Source: Minisyncoccota bacterium (GTDB taxonomy: Bacteria; Patescibacteriota; Minisyncoccia; Minisyncoccales; CG1-02-41-26). From it: a DNA stretch of 35,964 nucleotides. Positions 7,635-31,666 of the stretch are shown here, one piece after another; position 1 is the stretch's first letter, and each line of letters begins with the position of its first letter. Location of the stretch: assembly GCA_028718965.1 (NCBI GenBank), contig JAQUKS010000007.1, forward strand, positions 1 to 35,964, written 5' to 3'. The position numbers and the translations under genes are program-made. The notes under the pieces were generated by a model, which was given only the letters and a program-made list of their open reading frames with translations, ran no database searches and was not told the DNA's origin.

Positions 7635-7909
7635 AGATTTTTTTGGTTTTCTTAAAATGCTCTCTGATTGGATAGAACAGCCCGCGAAAAACCCGCGCCA
7701 AATCCCTCTTTTTCAAATACCAGTTTGCTGAAGCAAACAGTGGGTAGGGAGGGATTCGGCCTCGCCTCTCGCCTCGCCGTCGCTCGGCTCGGGCTGGCCA
7801 CCGCCTCGCGGTTTCGCCTGCTGGCGAAACATCGCTCCGGCGTTCGAATCCTGTCGCGAGCCAAGCAGTTGGCTCGCTCCTATTTATACCAGTTTGCTGA
7901 AGCAAACAG
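7635..7909. other. Palindrome-rich tract with duplicated tRNA ends
   Basis: No gene on either strand. It holds a copy of the tRNA-Tyr 3' end (7717-7758) and three perfect hairpins: GTTTGC..GCAAAC in each repeat copy, GTTTCGCC..GGCGAAAC (7811-7830) and GCGAGCCAA..TTGGCTCGC (7856-7877). It also holds an orphan tRNA 3'-end-like piece. Two inverted T-loop sequences (GGATTCG at 7752-7758, CGAATCC at 7845-7851) bound a G/C-rich core. Confidence 0.75.
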
Positions 7910-11282: not shown

Positions 11283-11580
11283 ATGATTAAGGTAGATTAC
11301 CAAAAAAAGTTATTCTTGGCAAGGGTAGAGGCCGGTTATTCTCCAGCCGTGCCTATTTTCCGCGCGCCCATCCAAGCTAGCTCATATCTGGAAACGCCAA
11401 TGCATGCGCTCCGGCAAACTCAGAACCTGTGAGGGTAAGACCCTCACAAACTGCTACCGGAATACGGGTGAGCATGAACACGGAGACTCTCCCTGCGATG
11501 AGACCTTCCTCACCTCCTACTCTCCCGAGAGACCGGAGATCGTCTACTGTGAAAAGTGCTATTTGAGGGAGGTGGGGTGA
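11283..11580 (+). pseudogene. Short zinc-ribbon protein gene broken by a palindrome insertion
   Basis: Two good coding halves lie in different frames. The first runs from ATG 11283 (MIKVDYQKKLFLARVEAGYSP...MHALRQTQNL) to a TGA at 11430-11432. The second, shifted by one base, reads NCYRNTGEHEHGDSPCDETF, then SYSPERPEIVYCEKCY to a stop at 11578-11580. The second part has the Cys/His spacing and the YSPERPEIVYCEKCY signature of zinc-ribbon proteins common in Parcubacteria. The frame changes exactly at a 21-bp perfect palindrome (11428-11448). Removing 19 or 22 bases there joins the halves into one ~95-residue protein with Cys residues on both sides. Function of the family is unknown to me. A sequencing error is the main alternative. 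Confidence 0.65.
11428..11448. repeat. Palindromic element, family A, copy 1
   Basis: TGTGAGGGT, loop AAG, ACCCTCACA: perfect 9-bp stem. The same stem occurs twice inside thrS with loops CTG and CAG. Confidence 0.92.
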
Positions 11581-16592: not shown

Positions 16593-16619
16593 AAACTAAA
16601 CTTAAAAAAAATATGTCAA
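16593..16619 (-). promoter_or_regulatory. Possible promoter of the 75-residue gene
   Basis: TTGACA (16614-16619, inside the first codons of thrS) and TAGTTT (16593-16598) with a 15-nt spacer on the minus strand. The -10 box is weak. Confidence 0.4.
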
Positions 16620-18385
16620 GCGAAAACAATAAAATAGAAACAATCCGCCATTCGTTGAGCCACATCATGGCCGCGGCGGTTAAAAAATTATACCCGGATG
16701 TTAAATTGGGCATTGGCCCGGCCATTGAAAACGGGTTTTACTATGATTTTGACGGCCTAAAAATATCCGACGATGATCTGCCCAGGATCGAGGAAGAAAT
16801 GCGTCAAATCATCAGGCAAAATATCGCTTTCGCGAAAAGCGAAATATCGCAAAGCGAAGCTGAAAAAATCTTCGCAGACCAGCCATACAAATTAGAGCTC
16901 ATAAACGAGCTCTGTGAGGGTCTGACCCTCACAGACTCTGTGAGGGTCAGACCCTCACAAGCTAAAGTCATATCCATCTATAAAAGCGGAAATTTCACAG
17001 ACCTCTGCATAGGCCCCCACATTAAATCAACTGAAGAAATCAGTCCCGGGGCTTTTAAGCTTAGTAAAATTGCCGGAGCCTACTGGCGGGGCGACGAAAA
17101 ACGTCCGATGCTCACCCGTGTTTACGGCCTGGCCTTTGAAACGGAAAAAGAGCTGGCCGATCACTTGAAAATGATCGAGGAAGCGGAAAAAAGAGACCAC
17201 CGCAAAATCGGCGCCAAGCTTGATTTGTTCTCTTTTCACGAGCAGGCGCCCGGTATGCCGTTTTTCCATCCCAGGGGCGCGATCGTCTATCATGAGCTGG
17301 AAAAATTCTGGCGTCAGGCCCAGGAAGAATTCGATTACCAATATGTGCACTGCCCTTCGATGCTTGATGTTTCGATTTGGAAGCAATCGGGCCATTGGGA
17401 TCACTACAAAGAAGATATGTTCTTCATCAAAGCCGCGAAAGACGAAAAGGAATTCGCCCTGCGGCCGATGGATTGCCCGGGCGCCATTTTGGTTTACAAC
17501 AATTCGCCCAAATCATACCGCGATCTGCCCCTTCGCTACGCCGAGCCCGGACTCATCACCCGAAAAGAAAAATCCGGCCAGCTGGGCGGGCTTTTTCGCG
17601 TGCAGCAGTTCAAACAAGACGACGCCCATATCTTTATGGCCGAAGACCAGATAGAAAGCGAAATAAAGAGCGTCATCAAACTGGTCGACAAGATTTACAA
17701 GCCCTTCGGCTTGGAATACAAAGCATTTTTATCAACCCGCCCCGATGACTATATGGGCGACATCAAGCTGTGGGACAAAGCCGAAAAAGAGCTCACGAAA
17801 ATCCTGAAAGAAGTATACGGGGACAATTACGGCTTGAAAGAAAAAGACGGCGCTTTTTACGGCCCGAAAATAGATTATCAGCTGAAAGATTGCCTCGGCC
17901 GCACCTGGCAATGCGCCACCATCCAGCTTGATTTCCAGATGCCTCTGAAATTCGACTGCCAGTTCATTGACAACGAAGGTAAACCAAGAACGCCGGTAAT
18001 GATTCACCGCACCATTATGGGCTCTTTCGAGCGTTTTATGGGCATTTTAATCGAGCATTACGCGGGCGCGTTTCCGCTGTGGCTGTCCCCTGTTCAAGCC
18101 ATTATTTTGCCTATTGGCCAGGACCACCAAAAATACGGCCAAGAGGTCTTGGACATGTTAAAGAAAAATAATATCCGAGCAACTCTGAATTTGGACAACG
18201 AAACAATCGGCAAGAAAATTCGCGAAGCGGAAATGCAAAAAATCCCCTATCTGCTGGTTGTCGGCGACAAAGAAGTTCAGGCCAAGTCCGTGGCCGTGCG
18301 TGAAAGAGGAGCTGGGGATAAAGGGGCTATGGCTATCGACGAGCTCATTGATATAATAAAAAAAGAGGTCGCTGATAAAAACTAA
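16613..18385 (+). CDS. thrS: Threonyl-tRNA synthetase, no TGS domain, with palindrome-encoded insert
   Basis: A 590-residue class II enzyme charging tRNA-Thr. It begins directly with the editing (N2) domain (IRHSLSHIMAAAVKKLYPDVKLGIGPAIENGFYYDFD); the ~60-residue TGS domain of E. coli ThrS is absent. The catalytic core shows RPMDCPGAILVYNN, GLFRVQQFKQDDAHIFM, DCLGRTWQCATIQLDFQMP and IHRTIMGSFERFMGILIEHYAG; the anticodon-binding domain starts at LSPVQAIILPIG. Between KLELINEL and AKVISIYKSGNFTDLC sit 16 extra residues (CEGLTLTDSVRVRPSQ, bases 16913-16960) encoded by two tandem 21-bp palindromes. Without them the spacing matches ordinary ThrS. The palindromes keep the frame. Confidence 0.96.
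   Translation: MSSENNKIETIRHSLSHIMAAAVKKLYPDVKLGIGPAIENGFYYDFDGLKISDDDLPRIEEEMRQIIRQNIAFAKSEISQSEAEKIFADQPYKLELINELCEGLTLTDSVRVRPSQAKVISIYKSGNFTDLCIGPHIKSTEEISPGAFKLSKIAGAYWRGDEKRPMLTRVYGLAFETEKELADHLKMIEEAEKRDHRKIGAKLDLFSFHEQAPGMPFFHPRGAIVYHELEKFWRQAQEEFDYQYVHCPSMLDVSIWKQSGHWDHYKEDMFFIKAAKDEKEFALRPMDCPGAILVYNNSPKSYRDLPLRYAEPGLITRKEKSGQLGGLFRVQQFKQDDAHIFMAEDQIESEIKSVIKLVDKIYKPFGLEYKAFLSTRPDDYMGDIKLWDKAEKELTKILKEVYGDNYGLKEKDGAFYGPKIDYQLKDCLGRTWQCATIQLDFQMPLKFDCQFIDNEGKPRTPVMIHRTIMGSFERFMGILIEHYAGAFPLWLSPVQAIILPIGQDHQKYGQEVLDMLKKNNIRATLNLDNETIGKKIREAEMQKIPYLLVVGDKEVQAKSVAVRERGAGDKGAMAIDELIDIIKKEVADKN
16913..16959. repeat. Palindromic element family A, two tandem copies inside thrS
   Basis: TGTGAGGGT-CTG-ACCCTCACA (16913-16933) and TGTGAGGGT-CAG-ACCCTCACA (16939-16959), period 26, spacer GACTC. 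GAGCTC occurs at 16895-16900 and again directly before the first copy (16907-16912). Confidence 0.95.
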
Positions 18386-18395
18386 TAAAAAAACT

Positions 18396-19703
18396 ATGCA
18401 AAAACTTTTTAAGTTTCTCGTGCCGACAATTGCCATTATGGCAATCGGCTTGGCCGGCGTTTGTCTGGCCCAGGAAGATACCACCGCCACCACGGGCGCG
18501 TCCGATACCCAAGAAGCCGCCGTCGAGGAAACGACTATAACTGCCCAGGATTTGGGCGTTTCAGACCCGACTCTTTTGCCCGACAGCAAATGGTATTTTC
18601 TCAAGAACTGGAAAAACTCCATTCAGTCGGTCTTCACTTTCGGCCAGGTCGCCAAGGCCGAGCTCAATTTGAAGATAGCTTCGGAAAAACTGCTGGAGGC
18701 TGAAAAATTGGCTGAAAAAGCAGACAACCAGCAAATTCTGGAAAAAGCCACCGAAGTATACAACCAACGGGTGGAAAAAATTCAGGAGAACATCGCCAAG
18801 TTCAAGGACACAGCCACCTCCAGCGAAAAAGTAAGCGACTTTCTGGACAAATACACCAAACAGCAAATCCTGCAAAACCAGATACTGGAAAAGCTTGAAA
18901 CCAAAGTTCCCACTTCGACCATGGAAAAGATAAAAGAAGCGCGGGAAAGACACCTCGAGCAGTTCGGCCAGGTAATGGAAAAGCTCGAAGACAAAAGCAA
19001 TATTCAGCAGCGCCTTGAAAAAGGCCTTGAGAACCTCAAAGAAAACGATTTGAAGCCGATAATCAAGGTGGAAATACTGAAAAAACTGGAAGACAAATTC
19101 CCAACCTCGACCATTAAACAGCTTCGAGAGGCAAAAACCGAGGCCTTGCAAAAGCTGAACGAAGAACTGCAATCCATGCCCGATGAAGCCCGGCAAAAAG
19201 TGGAAAATTATTTGGAAAAGGCCCAAGGGGTCGTTGAGCAAAAAAAGGAATTGATCAATGAGATAAGAAACAGCCTGCCCGCGACCTCGACCATACGCCA
19301 GAAGGTTGAGATCATCAAGGATAAGCTGGAAAATGACGCCGCGGCCGTGAGAAGATACGGCAACGATTGCGTTTGCACGATGGAATACAATCCGGTTTGC
19401 GGGACTGACGGCAAAACATACGGCAACCCCTGCAAGGCCAAGTGCCTTAATGTCGCCATTGTTTCAGAGGGCGCGTGCGCCTCTGCCAAACCGACCACTT
19501 CAAATGTGGTCGGCGGGGATAAAGACGAGCACGGCTGCATCGGCTCGGCCGGCTACACCTGGTGCGAAGCAAAAGAAAAATGTTTGAGAACCTGGGAAGA
19601 GCCCTGCCCGATCAGAAACATTGAACAAGAACAAAATCAGGGAACCACGCAGAATATGGAGCAGAACCAGAATCAAGTTCAAAAAGAGCAGGGCCGACAG
19701 TAA
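18396..19703 (+). CDS. Secreted DUF5667 protein with a Kazal-type domain
   Basis: 435 residues. A signal peptide (residues 1-25, LFKFLVPTIAIMAIGLAGVCLAQ) is followed by a Thr/Glu-rich linker and a DUF5667-like segment (LLPDSKWYFLKNWKNSIQSVFTFGQVAKAELNLKIASEKLLEAEKLAEK). Then comes a long coiled-coil region to ~residue 315, and a Kazal domain (CVCTMEYNPVCGTDGKTYGNPCKAKC...EGAC, about 323-360). A final Cys motif (HGCIGSAGYTWCEAKEKCLRTWEEPC) precedes a Gln/Asn-rich tail. Kazal domains usually inhibit serine proteases; in this lineage they occur on surface proteins of unknown role. It starts 10 nt after thrS and ends in a strong terminator. Confidence 0.88.
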   Translation: MQKLFKFLVPTIAIMAIGLAGVCLAQEDTTATTGASDTQEAAVEETTITAQDLGVSDPTLLPDSKWYFLKNWKNSIQSVFTFGQVAKAELNLKIASEKLLEAEKLAEKADNQQILEKATEVYNQRVEKIQENIAKFKDTATSSEKVSDFLDKYTKQQILQNQILEKLETKVPTSTMEKIKEARERHLEQFGQVMEKLEDKSNIQQRLEKGLENLKENDLKPIIKVEILKKLEDKFPTSTIKQLREAKTEALQKLNEELQSMPDEARQKVENYLEKAQGVVEQKKELINEIRNSLPATSTIRQKVEIIKDKLENDAAAVRRYGNDCVCTMEYNPVCGTDGKTYGNPCKAKCLNVAIVSEGACASAKPTTSNVVGGDKDEHGCIGSAGYTWCEAKEKCLRTWEEPCPIRNIEQEQNQGTTQNMEQNQNQVQKEQGRQ

Positions 19704-28123: not shown

Positions 28124-28403
28124 TATATGTCCAGATTCTTTACCTGTTTGGCGTGTACCTGGATGAACTTCTTTCTGGGAGCAACATCCGAGCCCATTAA
28201 AGTGTCGCGGCGGCCTCGCTTCGCTCGGCCTGATGCCGCTCCTTAAAACCCCTCGGTTTTAATATTTCCGCCACGGGAGGGAAGCATTCCCTCCCGACCC
28301 CTTCCTTACTTTAATGGGCTATATGTCCAGATTCTTTACCTGTTTGGCGTGTACCTGGATGAACTTCTTTCTGGGAGCAACATCCGAGCCCATTAAAGTG
28401 TCG
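28124..28403. repeat. Exact 84-bp direct repeat of the gyrB 3' end (28124-28207 and 28320-28403)
   Basis: The last ~27 codons of gyrB are repeated without any difference. The right copy ends the present gene (TAG); the left copy ends in TAA just before the orphan gene. Between them are 112 bases with hairpins GCGGC..GCCGC, AAAACC..GGTTTT and a perfect 10-bp one (28274-28296, CGGGAGGGAA..TTCCCTCCCG). A 13-bp inverted repeat (AGCCCATTAAAGT at 28191-28203, its complement at 28308-28320) bounds the insert. Confidence 0.93.
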
Positions 28404-31400
28404 AAAATATGGTCCGCTTCTTTGGCGTCGTCAATATTTACCTGTAGTAGAATGCGATTCTCGGGGTTCATGGTGGTTTCCCATAATTCCTCGGGATTCA
28501 TTTCGCCCAAACCTTTATAGCGTTGGATGTTAACGCCCGCTATCTTGCCGGTCTCCTCTGCTATTTCTTCGACAGCCGTTTCTCCGGATTCGCCGGCCTG
28601 CGCGGCCCGGCTTTTTCCCGCGATTATCTTTTTGTCGGCGATCTCTTTCTTAATTTTTTTAAATTCATCCAAAACCTCTTCTTTATCGGCGTCAGTATAA
28701 GCATATTCCACTTTCTTGCCTGCCTGGATCTTATAAAGCGGCGGCTGGGCAATGTACAAATAACCTTTTTCGATCACATCCTTGAAATGACGGTAGAATA
28801 AAGTAAGCAACAGGGTTCTGATATGGGCCCCGTCAACATCCGCGTCACTCATGATGATGATGCGATGATAACGCAATTTTTCGATATCAAAGTCCTGGGC
28901 AATGGCCGTGCCCAAAGCGATGATGAGCGATTTTATCTCCTGCGAATCCAAAAGCCGGTCAAGCCGGGCCTTTTCCACGTTCAAAATCTTGCCCCGCAAT
29001 GGCAGAATGGCCTGGGTTCTTCTGTCTCTTGCCATTTTGCTGCTATTATGCACAAAAACACCGTTAGCTAAAGCAAAATTATGCGTGCCTTCAACTTCTA
29101 AATCATAAACATCAACTTTTTCAGACAGCCGAACAACTCTTTTGATTTTATGATTATAATTTTCTACCGCTTCCTTTAATTCCGCCTCATTGCCAGCAAA
29201 AAATCTATTACAAATCGTTTCGTATTTTATAATACTTCTGTCGTTCCTCTGCTGGCGCAAATCATTGTATTTTTCGATGTCAATTTTTCCACAGGTTTCC
29301 AAAACACTCTTTAATGCTCCGAGCGCCTTATTCAAGTATGTTTTGTTATAGGCGACTTTTCTTTTTATTCTGAAATCATCCGTCCATTGTTCCTTTGTCT
29401 TTTCGCTCCGCCATTTTCTCAATTCCGTGTTTTTCCATTGCTCTTTCGAGACCGAAGAAAACATTTCCCTTACCTTTGGGTTTTCGGCAAAATATTTTCT
29501 AACTTTCTCCGACTGTTGCTGACGATTTTTTTTGTCAGACCAATATGCTTTCTGAACTTGATTCAATAATTCATTATTTCTTTCCCTATAAGCATGATTG
29601 CTTTGATAAAACGCCAAAAACCTATCGGTCATATAACGCTTGTAATCGTCGTTCTCCCACTGCTTCTTCGCCCGCTCGCTTAATATCTTTCTCATTTCAG
29701 GCATAGACATTGCAGCTTTAATCTTTCGACGGTATTCCGGCGACTGGTGGACTTTTCTAATTTTCTCTAACGTTTCTGGTTTTTCTAAATTATCTCGAGC
29801 AACAGTGGCATGGAAATATAAATGCTCCATTTTCTCCATACGACAGAGATTATCCGGGCTATTATTAAGTTTATTATAATCCTTATGATGGATGACTGTC
29901 CTCTTGCTTCTCTCATACAAATCCCTTTCAGTGTTATATCTATCAGCCAATAAATGACTGAAAATCCATTTATTGATCTTCGGACAAAACACCATCTCAT
30001 AACCATCGATAGTGATCCTACCTCCCTTTTGCGAAATTTTACGCTGTAGGGGCATCAATGAATCCGACGGCAATATCCGGCTTGCCTCTTTATAGGAGCC
30101 ATCTCGCAACATGAACTTATGGTCAGGGGTGCAAATGACTTCTTGATTATTATCTAAAATAACTTTGATTACCTCCGTTTGCTGTTTAGTGCGCCTTACA
30201 TTCTTGATCAGACCAACACCAATCGTGCCATCATCTTTCATGGTATAGCAATAATTTTTTTTGCCTGCTTGTTCCTCCTTAATAAGCTCTACGAAAGATA
30301 CTTCCCGGCCATCAAGCAAGGCTACTTTGGTATCACCGAAAAAACATCCGCCGGCGCTATCGCCCTCGACTATGTAAATCTCTGATTCGGCCGGGTCCTT
30401 GGACGAACAGTCGGCCAATTTGCCTGGCAAGGTTAGGCCCTCCAAAATACCTTTTCTTAAAATGGTAGTGCGCGCCGCCTTGGCCGCTCTCCTGGCTCTG
30501 GCCGACAACAAACAGTTTTCCACGATAACGCGGGCGTCGGTAGGATTCTTTTCCAGCCAGTCGCTGAATGTTTCGCCAAACACACCCTCCACCGCGGCCT
30601 TGGCTTCGGTATTGCCCAGCTTGGCTTTTGTCTGACCTTCAAACTGCGGCTCGCGGATTTTTATGGATACCACCGCGATCATTCCCTCCCTCATATCATT
30701 GCCCAAAAGATTTTCGTCTTTCTCTTTGAGATAGCCGTTCTTTCGCGCGTAATCATTGACCACTCTGGTAAGAGCGGTCCTGAAGCCGGTCAAATGAGTG
30801 CCTCCCTCGCCGGTCGTTATATTGTTGGCGAAACTTTCCTCGACGCATTCCATTTCCTTGGCATACTGCAAAGCCGTTTCCACCAAAATGCCGTCTCTCT
30901 CGGCTTTGCAATAAAAACGATTCTCATGCTTGGGATCATTATCGCCCAATAAATAACGCAAATACGATTTCAGTCCGCCCTCAAAATAAAAAGTATAAGA
31001 AAAAGCAGGCGAAACGGTTTCGTCCCTTACTATCATTTTTACTTTGGGCGTAAGATAAGCCTGATGGCGCACGTGAGTGAGAATGCGTTTCAGGTTGAGT
31101 TTGGCGTCTTTATCTTTGAAAATTTCTTCGTCCGGCTCGAACGTTATCGTGGTGCCGGTTTGTTTGCAGGCGTCAATCTTCTTCACCTTGGCTTTGGGCA
31201 CGCCTTTGGAATATTCCTGGACATAAAGCCCGTTATCGCGGCACACTTCCGCTCTCATATACTTGCTCAAAGCGCAAACCACCGAAACGCCCACGCCGTG
31301 CAGGCCGCCCGATACCTTATAAGCCTCGCTGCCGAACTTTCCTCCCGCGTGCAGGGTGGTCATGACGGTTTCCAGGGCTGATTTGCCGGTTTGAGCGTGC

Positions 31401-31666
31401 GTTTCCACGGGAATGCCCCGACCGTTATCGGTGCATTTTACCCGGTTGCCCGACAACAGGGTCACGGTGATTTCATCGGCATAACCGGCCATTGCTTCAT
31501 CAATACTGTTGTCAAGCACTTCCCAGATCAAATGATGAATGCCGTCAACGCCGGTCGAGCCGATATACATACCCGGCCGCTTTCGCACCGGTTCCAAACC
31601 CTCCAAAACATAAATGTCTTTGGCAGTATAATTCGAATTATTCGTTTTTTCTTTTTTAGTGGCCAT
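28319..31666 (-). CDS. gyrB: DNA gyrase subunit B interrupted by an intein
   Basis: A 1115-residue precursor; removing the intein leaves about 681 residues of GyrB, the ATPase subunit of the supercoiling enzyme. Extein motifs: LEGLEPVRKRPGMYIGSTG, EVLDNSIDEAMAGYADE and GLHGVGVSVVCALS (GHKL ATPase), TALTRVVNDYARKNG, the Toprim start EIYIVEGDSAGG, split by the intein from SSKMARDRRTQAILPLRGKILNVEKA, then IIIMSDADVDGAHIRTLLLTLFYR and the C-terminal QRYKGLGEMNPEELWETTM. Part of pheS-pheT-gyrB (11-nt gap). The 3' end is duplicated downstream. GyrB rather than ParE is favoured by overall motif order; gyrA or parC are not in view. Confidence 0.96.
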   Translation of the reverse strand: MATKKEKTNNSNYTAKDIYVLEGLEPVRKRPGMYIGSTGVDGIHHLIWEVLDNSIDEAMAGYADEITVTLLSGNRVKCTDNGRGIPVETHAQTGKSALETVMTTLHAGGKFGSEAYKVSGGLHGVGVSVVCALSKYMRAEVCRDNGLYVQEYSKGVPKAKVKKIDACKQTGTTITFEPDEEIFKDKDAKLNLKRILTHVRHQAYLTPKVKMIVRDETVSPAFSYTFYFEGGLKSYLRYLLGDNDPKHENRFYCKAERDGILVETALQYAKEMECVEESFANNITTGEGGTHLTGFRTALTRVVNDYARKNGYLKEKDENLLGNDMREGMIAVVSIKIREPQFEGQTKAKLGNTEAKAAVEGVFGETFSDWLEKNPTDARVIVENCLLSARARRAAKAARTTILRKGILEGLTLPGKLADCSSKDPAESEIYIVEGDSAGGCFFGDTKVALLDGREVSFVELIKEEQAGKKNYCYTMKDDGTIGVGLIKNVRRTKQQTEVIKVILDNNQEVICTPDHKFMLRDGSYKEASRILPSDSLMPLQRKISQKGGRITIDGYEMVFCPKINKWIFSHLLADRYNTERDLYERSKRTVIHHKDYNKLNNSPDNLCRMEKMEHLYFHATVARDNLEKPETLEKIRKVHQSPEYRRKIKAAMSMPEMRKILSERAKKQWENDDYKRYMTDRFLAFYQSNHAYRERNNELLNQVQKAYWSDKKNRQQQSEKVRKYFAENPKVREMFSSVSKEQWKNTELRKWRSEKTKEQWTDDFRIKRKVAYNKTYLNKALGALKSVLETCGKIDIEKYNDLRQQRNDRSIIKYETICNRFFAGNEAELKEAVENYNHKIKRVVRLSEKVDVYDLEVEGTHNFALANGVFVHNSSKMARDRRTQAILPLRGKILNVEKARLDRLLDSQEIKSLIIALGTAIAQDFDIEKLRYHRIIIMSDADVDGAHIRTLLLTLFYRHFKDVIEKGYLYIAQPPLYKIQAGKKVEYAYTDADKEEVLDEFKKIKKEIADKKIIAGKSRAAQAGESGETAVEEIAEETGKIAGVNIQRYKGLGEMNPEELWETTMNPENRILLQVNIDDAKEADHIFDTLMGSDVAPRKKFIQVHAKQVKNLDI
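29045..30346 (-). mobile_element. GyrB intein with HNH homing endonuclease
   Basis: 434 residues (441-874 of the precursor) inserted exactly between EGDSAGG and SSKMARDRR. It begins with Cys (CFFGDTKVALLDGREVSF), has the block-B TPDHKF, and ends DVYDLEVEGTHNFALANGVFVHN followed by Ser, all residues needed for protein splicing. The central part holds an HNH endonuclease signature (VIHHKDYNKLNNSPDNLCRMEKMEHLYFH) and a series of NUMOD-like DNA-binding repeats (SPEYRRKIKAAMS, MPEMRKILSERAKKQW, NPKVREMFSSVSKEQW). The site equals that of the known cyanobacterial GyrB intein. It is more A/T-rich than the extein, consistent with horizontal spread. Confidence 0.95.

Follow-up and report, generated by a model that had tools for sequence, protein, structure and literature searches.

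At positions 11428–11448 of the DNA analysed here (contig JAQUKS010000007.1 of a Minisyncoccota bacterium, 35,964 nucleotides, referred to below as the window), a perfect palindrome with 9-bp arms, TGTGAGGGTAAGACCCTCACA, lies where two open reading frames appear to meet, which raises the question of whether a spreading hairpin has broken a small zinc-ribbon gene or is simply read through as part of it. The preliminary description took the former view, seeing two coding halves of a ~95-residue protein, split by a frameshift at the palindrome, that could be rejoined by deleting 19 or 22 bases. Judged from the sequence, there is no frameshift at 11428–11448, and the palindrome sits in frame.

The frame of position 11284 is open from about 11326, passes through the palindrome and ends with a TGA at 11578–11580; already continuous, it needs no removal of bases. 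Its translation reads IWKRQCMRSGKLRT-CEGKTLT-NCYRNTGEHEHG...CEKCYLREVG*, the residues after CEGKTLT being NCYRNTGEHEHGDSPCDETFLTSYSPERPEIVYCEKCYLREVG. The supposed first half, MIKVDYQ...RQTQNL (11283–11432, forward strand), starts at 11283, in a frame neighbouring that of NCYRNTGEHEHG..., and ends at the palindrome because the latter contains a TGA (11430–11432). A search of 247 genomes of the order found no credible homologue of this ORF (a single match, with E = 0.09, is chance-level), a Pfam search gave no hit, and the frame of the paralogues is the same before and after the palindrome; we regard the ORF as spurious. The second half has no significant Pfam match either, only a hint of zf_Tbcl_2. 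Directly upstream of it, the same frame encodes IWKRQCMRSGKLRTCEGKTLT, homologous to the pre-palindrome stretch plus palindrome of intact paralogues. The apparent frameshift thus arose because the first half was read in the wrong frame. From the palindrome onward, the window copy differs from the paralogue on contig C17 by five substitutions, all of them third-position and synonymous in the 11284 frame.

What is left at this locus is a copy, at 11387–11580 (forward strand), that has lost the 5' part of a zinc-ribbon (treble-clef-like) gene and is 84–88% identical in blastn to paralogues on contigs C17, C14 and C18 of the same genome, all three of which carry the palindrome in frame at identical codons. 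The paralogue on C18 is complete, with ~620 residues, and at the DNA level the window copy is homologous to all three from 11387 onward; it is therefore a duplicate, truncated on the 5' side, of a gene with ~620 residues. It is defective because some 90% of the gene is missing from its 5' side, not through the palindrome, to which gene loss had been attributed; nor do the data support a varying insertion length as the reason, as had been proposed, the palindrome being in frame in all four copies. Directly before the palindrome, the window copy is 15 bases shorter than C17, a difference divisible by three. The full paralogue scores below the cut-off in both Pfam and NCBIfam.

Homologues in the genomes G014, G003 and G015, with 66–71% identity over this stretch, differ in the loop, which is shorter there and has no palindrome; the palindrome therefore occupies a hypervariable loop between cysteines. 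The centre of the palindrome is an altered AAG in the window copy (contig C7), C14 and C17, and CAG or CTG in C18 and the dispersed copies; an AAG shared by three of the four zinc-ribbon copies argues for spread by gene duplication. The zinc-ribbon palindromes are accordingly best explained by duplication rather than independent insertions, and the one at the window locus arrived as a passenger of duplication, with no fresh insertion there. This large protein family is multi-copy in a few genomes of the taxonomic family and missing from most, with copies in the window's genome (G000; C14, C17/C25, C18 and C29) and in G015, G014 and G003.

The palindrome itself, TGTGAGGGT-AAG-ACCCTCACA (11428–11448, no strand assigned), is confirmed at the zinc-ribbon site, where it is read as CEGKTLT. 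As single-stranded DNA it folds with −8.9 kcal/mol (z = −4.2), a stability matched by none of 200 shuffles. Three copies, allowing up to three mismatches, occur in the window, as against none in dinucleotide shuffles, and about 12 in the genome (865 kb in 48 contigs). The exact 21-mer is absent from all other genomes searched (84,980), a 19-mer search of viral contigs gave no match, and no GTAG or CGTC tag is common to the flanks of the 12 listed copies. By direct reading, a CTG-centred element has one forward frame without stops and a CAG-centred element two. A separate hairpin, GTTTCGCC-4nt-GGCGAAAC, lies at 7811–7830 between the genes for tRNA-Thr and tRNA-Tyr and is found at six places genome-wide, two of them on contigs with overlapping ends.

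The other two window copies form a doublet within thrS (16613–18385, forward strand; threonyl-tRNA synthetase, 590 residues). Copy 1, TGTGAGGGTCTGACCCTCACA at 16913–16933, has a CTG centre and reads CEGLTLT; copy 2, TGTGAGGGTCAGACCCTCACA at 16939–16959, has a CAG centre and reads VRVRPSQ, within SVRVRPSQ. Neither has an assigned strand, and both are translated in precisely the stop-free frames. The copies are spaced 26 bp apart and together make one long hairpin (−30.7 kcal/mol, z = −10.2). The predicted peptide at this point includes CEGLTLTDSVRVRPSQ. The likeness of CEGKTLT to CEGLTLT had been noted correctly, and the in-frame insert in ThrS is borne out by comparison: its 15 residues are missing in the closest relative, G015 (73–75% identical), and the E. 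coli enzyme is shorter there too. Other relatives have unrelated additional residues at the same point, which is therefore a permissive loop as well. Elsewhere in the window, inspection by eye pointed to a secreted-looking protein with a Kazal-like motif (18396–19703, forward strand) and to a GyrB ORF of 1115 residues (28319–31666, reverse strand) that appears to be interrupted by an intein-like, partly HNH-like insert (GDSAGGC...VFVHNSSKMARD).

Palindrome-derived peptides are found in frame in several other genes: in the C-terminal tail of L19 (rplS) of the window's genome, in AtpG of G186 (WRVRPSK...EGPTLQ, facing gaps in solved homologues) and in RecG of G002 (EGQTPPQLGAGSDPTR, partly facing a gap). 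GalT of G003 contains such a peptide as well, but was not accepted as a further insertion, its alignment having no clear net insert. Across the order, the REP-like hairpin core GGGTCWGACCC is present in 63 of 247 genomes, with up to 37 copies, backward-pattern controls mostly giving 0 or 1. Many copies form pairs with a spacing of 26–27 bp, like the thrS doublet, and in some cases a gene lies between two copies.

A connection with transposition comes from three relatives (L081, L082 and L083, one of them in the window's genus), in which the core flanks an IS200-like transposase gene. All three products match PF01797 above the cut-off and conserve MPNHxHL; their best NCBIfam match is REP_Tyr_transpos, at 38–45 bits against a cut-off of 80. 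The L082 sequence is identical to contig PFAV01000010.1 (Candidatus Gribaldobacteria), a match that puts the genome of the window close to this group, and its transposase coding sequence (L082:379-416, on G002:C12) holds an in-frame doublet of its own flanking hairpin, IGRGQTPANLGWGLTPTNL. A scan with the transposases as queries returned 39 loci, nearly all from Patescibacteria/Parcubacteria lineages, a few being labelled just 'bacterium'. Among the 36 relatives checked, a GC-rich hairpin lies upstream in 22, downstream in 23 and on both sides in 16; the stems on the two sides match in 15 of 36, compared with 0 of 144 displaced window pairs. Such hairpins are thus associated with transposases in relatives. 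Among these relatives, only L251 and L275 (the loci of L083 and L082) carry the exact core, the stems of the others being different – as expected if hairpins are specific to individual enzymes.

In the window's own genome, no transposase with the exact window hairpin was found. Its three Y1 transposases were considered as owners of the palindrome and rejected, each having different flanking hairpins; the partner transposase has therefore been lost, is unassembled or lies elsewhere. Two of these genes, L006 (G000:C3:44592-44825) and L007 (G000:C3:32547-32765), are flanked on both sides by their own hairpins (TTGAAAGTGGCC... and TGTCGGTATCTGG..., respectively), which have further solo copies in the genome. 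At the contig start (5–367, forward strand), inspection by eye also suggests an integrase-type transposase-like fragment (KTDNGNCFTNRY...). Several core-rich genomes (e.g. G102, G132 and G168) have no Pfam-level Y1 match. As no polymorphism between empty and filled sites was seen within one species, we infer, rather than observe, that a transposase moved the window palindrome.

Among described repeats, the closest to the window element appears to be the TIRtron class, which would make it a Patescibacteria case of a known phenomenon. TIR-associated tyrosine transposases have inverted repeats that share GGGGWSAS, are sometimes self-complementary and also occur as dimers (PMC3733652). The likeness lies in an IS200-like tyrosine transposase between inverted, sometimes self-complementary repeats – an arrangement present in relatives, though not for the exact palindrome in the window's genome – as well as in dimers and a moderate copy number (PMC3733652); the TIRtron motif appears as GGGGTCAG in the L081 and L082 hairpins, and the window copies, reading AGGGTCAG, are one base off. 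Unlike the window element, however, known TIRtrons come from other phyla, and the window's genome has no detected partner transposase. REP/RAYT systems (REPtrons) share palindromes of 20–40 bp, doublets, a RAYT-type transposase and occasional in-frame intragenic copies (PMC3733652); indeed, REPs inside ORFs, including those of tRNA synthetase and repair genes, and in-frame REPs have been reported (Di Nocera et al. 2013; PMC3733652). The window element differs from REPs proper in having no GTAG/CGTC tag and about 12 copies, RAYT-associated REPs usually exceeding 100 per genome (PMC2817692), and in the sub-threshold scores of its relatives' transposases (38–45 bits versus 80). Like Rickettsia palindromic elements, which have been found inserted in frame within genes for unrelated proteins (PMC10969869), it is read in ThrS, the zinc ribbon, the L19 tail, AtpG and RecG; by length, it has 21 bp, or ~47 bp as a doublet, against their ~150 bp (PMC10969869), the comparison being one of length and insertion habit. 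A literature search for RAYTs in the Candidate Phyla Radiation gave nothing on topic by title or abstract. The idea of a spreading element has held up, in that the palindrome belongs to a dispersed, transposase-associated kind of repeat.

We consider it highly probable that a REP/TIR-like hairpin in frame, duplication and truncation of the zinc-ribbon gene and a separate thrS doublet, with no frameshift, together account for these data; in-frame reading, paralogy and truncation are direct observations. The palindrome would be a hairpin repeat with the core GGGTCWGACCC, of a type that in Patescibacteria flanks IS200-like HUH transposases (RAYT/TIRYT type) and is probably mobilised by them; an ancestral copy would have entered the hypervariable loop between zinc ligands of a zinc-ribbon gene, in frame and tolerated. 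The gene would then have been duplicated, one duplicate losing its 5' part to become 11387–11580 with the palindrome still in frame, while a separate doublet would have entered the variable thrS loop, likewise in frame.

That an element of variable insertion length instead put the two parts of a ~95-residue gene into different frames is scarcely credible: two ORFs in neighbouring frames do abut at the palindrome, but its internal TGA accounts for the end of the first, which has no credible homologue, the full gene has ~620 residues, and the paralogues keep one coding frame on both sides. The idea that the window copy is chimeric or misassembled from repeated zinc-ribbon genes deserves slightly more attention, since C17 and C25 both terminate within one paralogue, which runs on from one contig to the other across a 127-bp overlap, so that these repeats do trouble the assembler; yet the window copy is at most 88% identical to every other copy and has unique sequence on either side, in the interior of a 36-kb contig, making this very improbable. 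Unlikely, too, is an origin outside transposons, with the palindrome functioning as a hairpin for regulation or termination or as a signal akin to those for DNA uptake; for an uptake signal, the copies are few. In G102, the core does occur between genes in hairpins resembling terminators, and some copies may be used secondarily in this way, but the copies in coding regions (thrS, recG, atpG), the fixed spacing of doublets and the two-sided flanking of transposases suit a REP/TIR origin better.

The hairpin read through in a truncated duplicate thus corrects a false call of a pseudogene by frameshift, and a low-copy, transposase-linked palindrome family of Patescibacteria joins the few repeats in bacteria that form part of the reading frames of conserved genes. 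Selection presumably removed insertions that were out of frame or carried stops. Far more tentatively – and we regard it as rather doubtful – IS200-type hairpins of Patescibacteria might recurrently enter conserved genes in frame (thrS, atpG, recG, the rplS tail, the zinc-ribbon family and the transposase itself) and, kept stop-free in one or two frames, steadily supply new peptide loops to very reduced genomes. These genomes being small, tolerated in-frame hairpin insertions, such as that in ThrRS, represent a testable route to protein variation.
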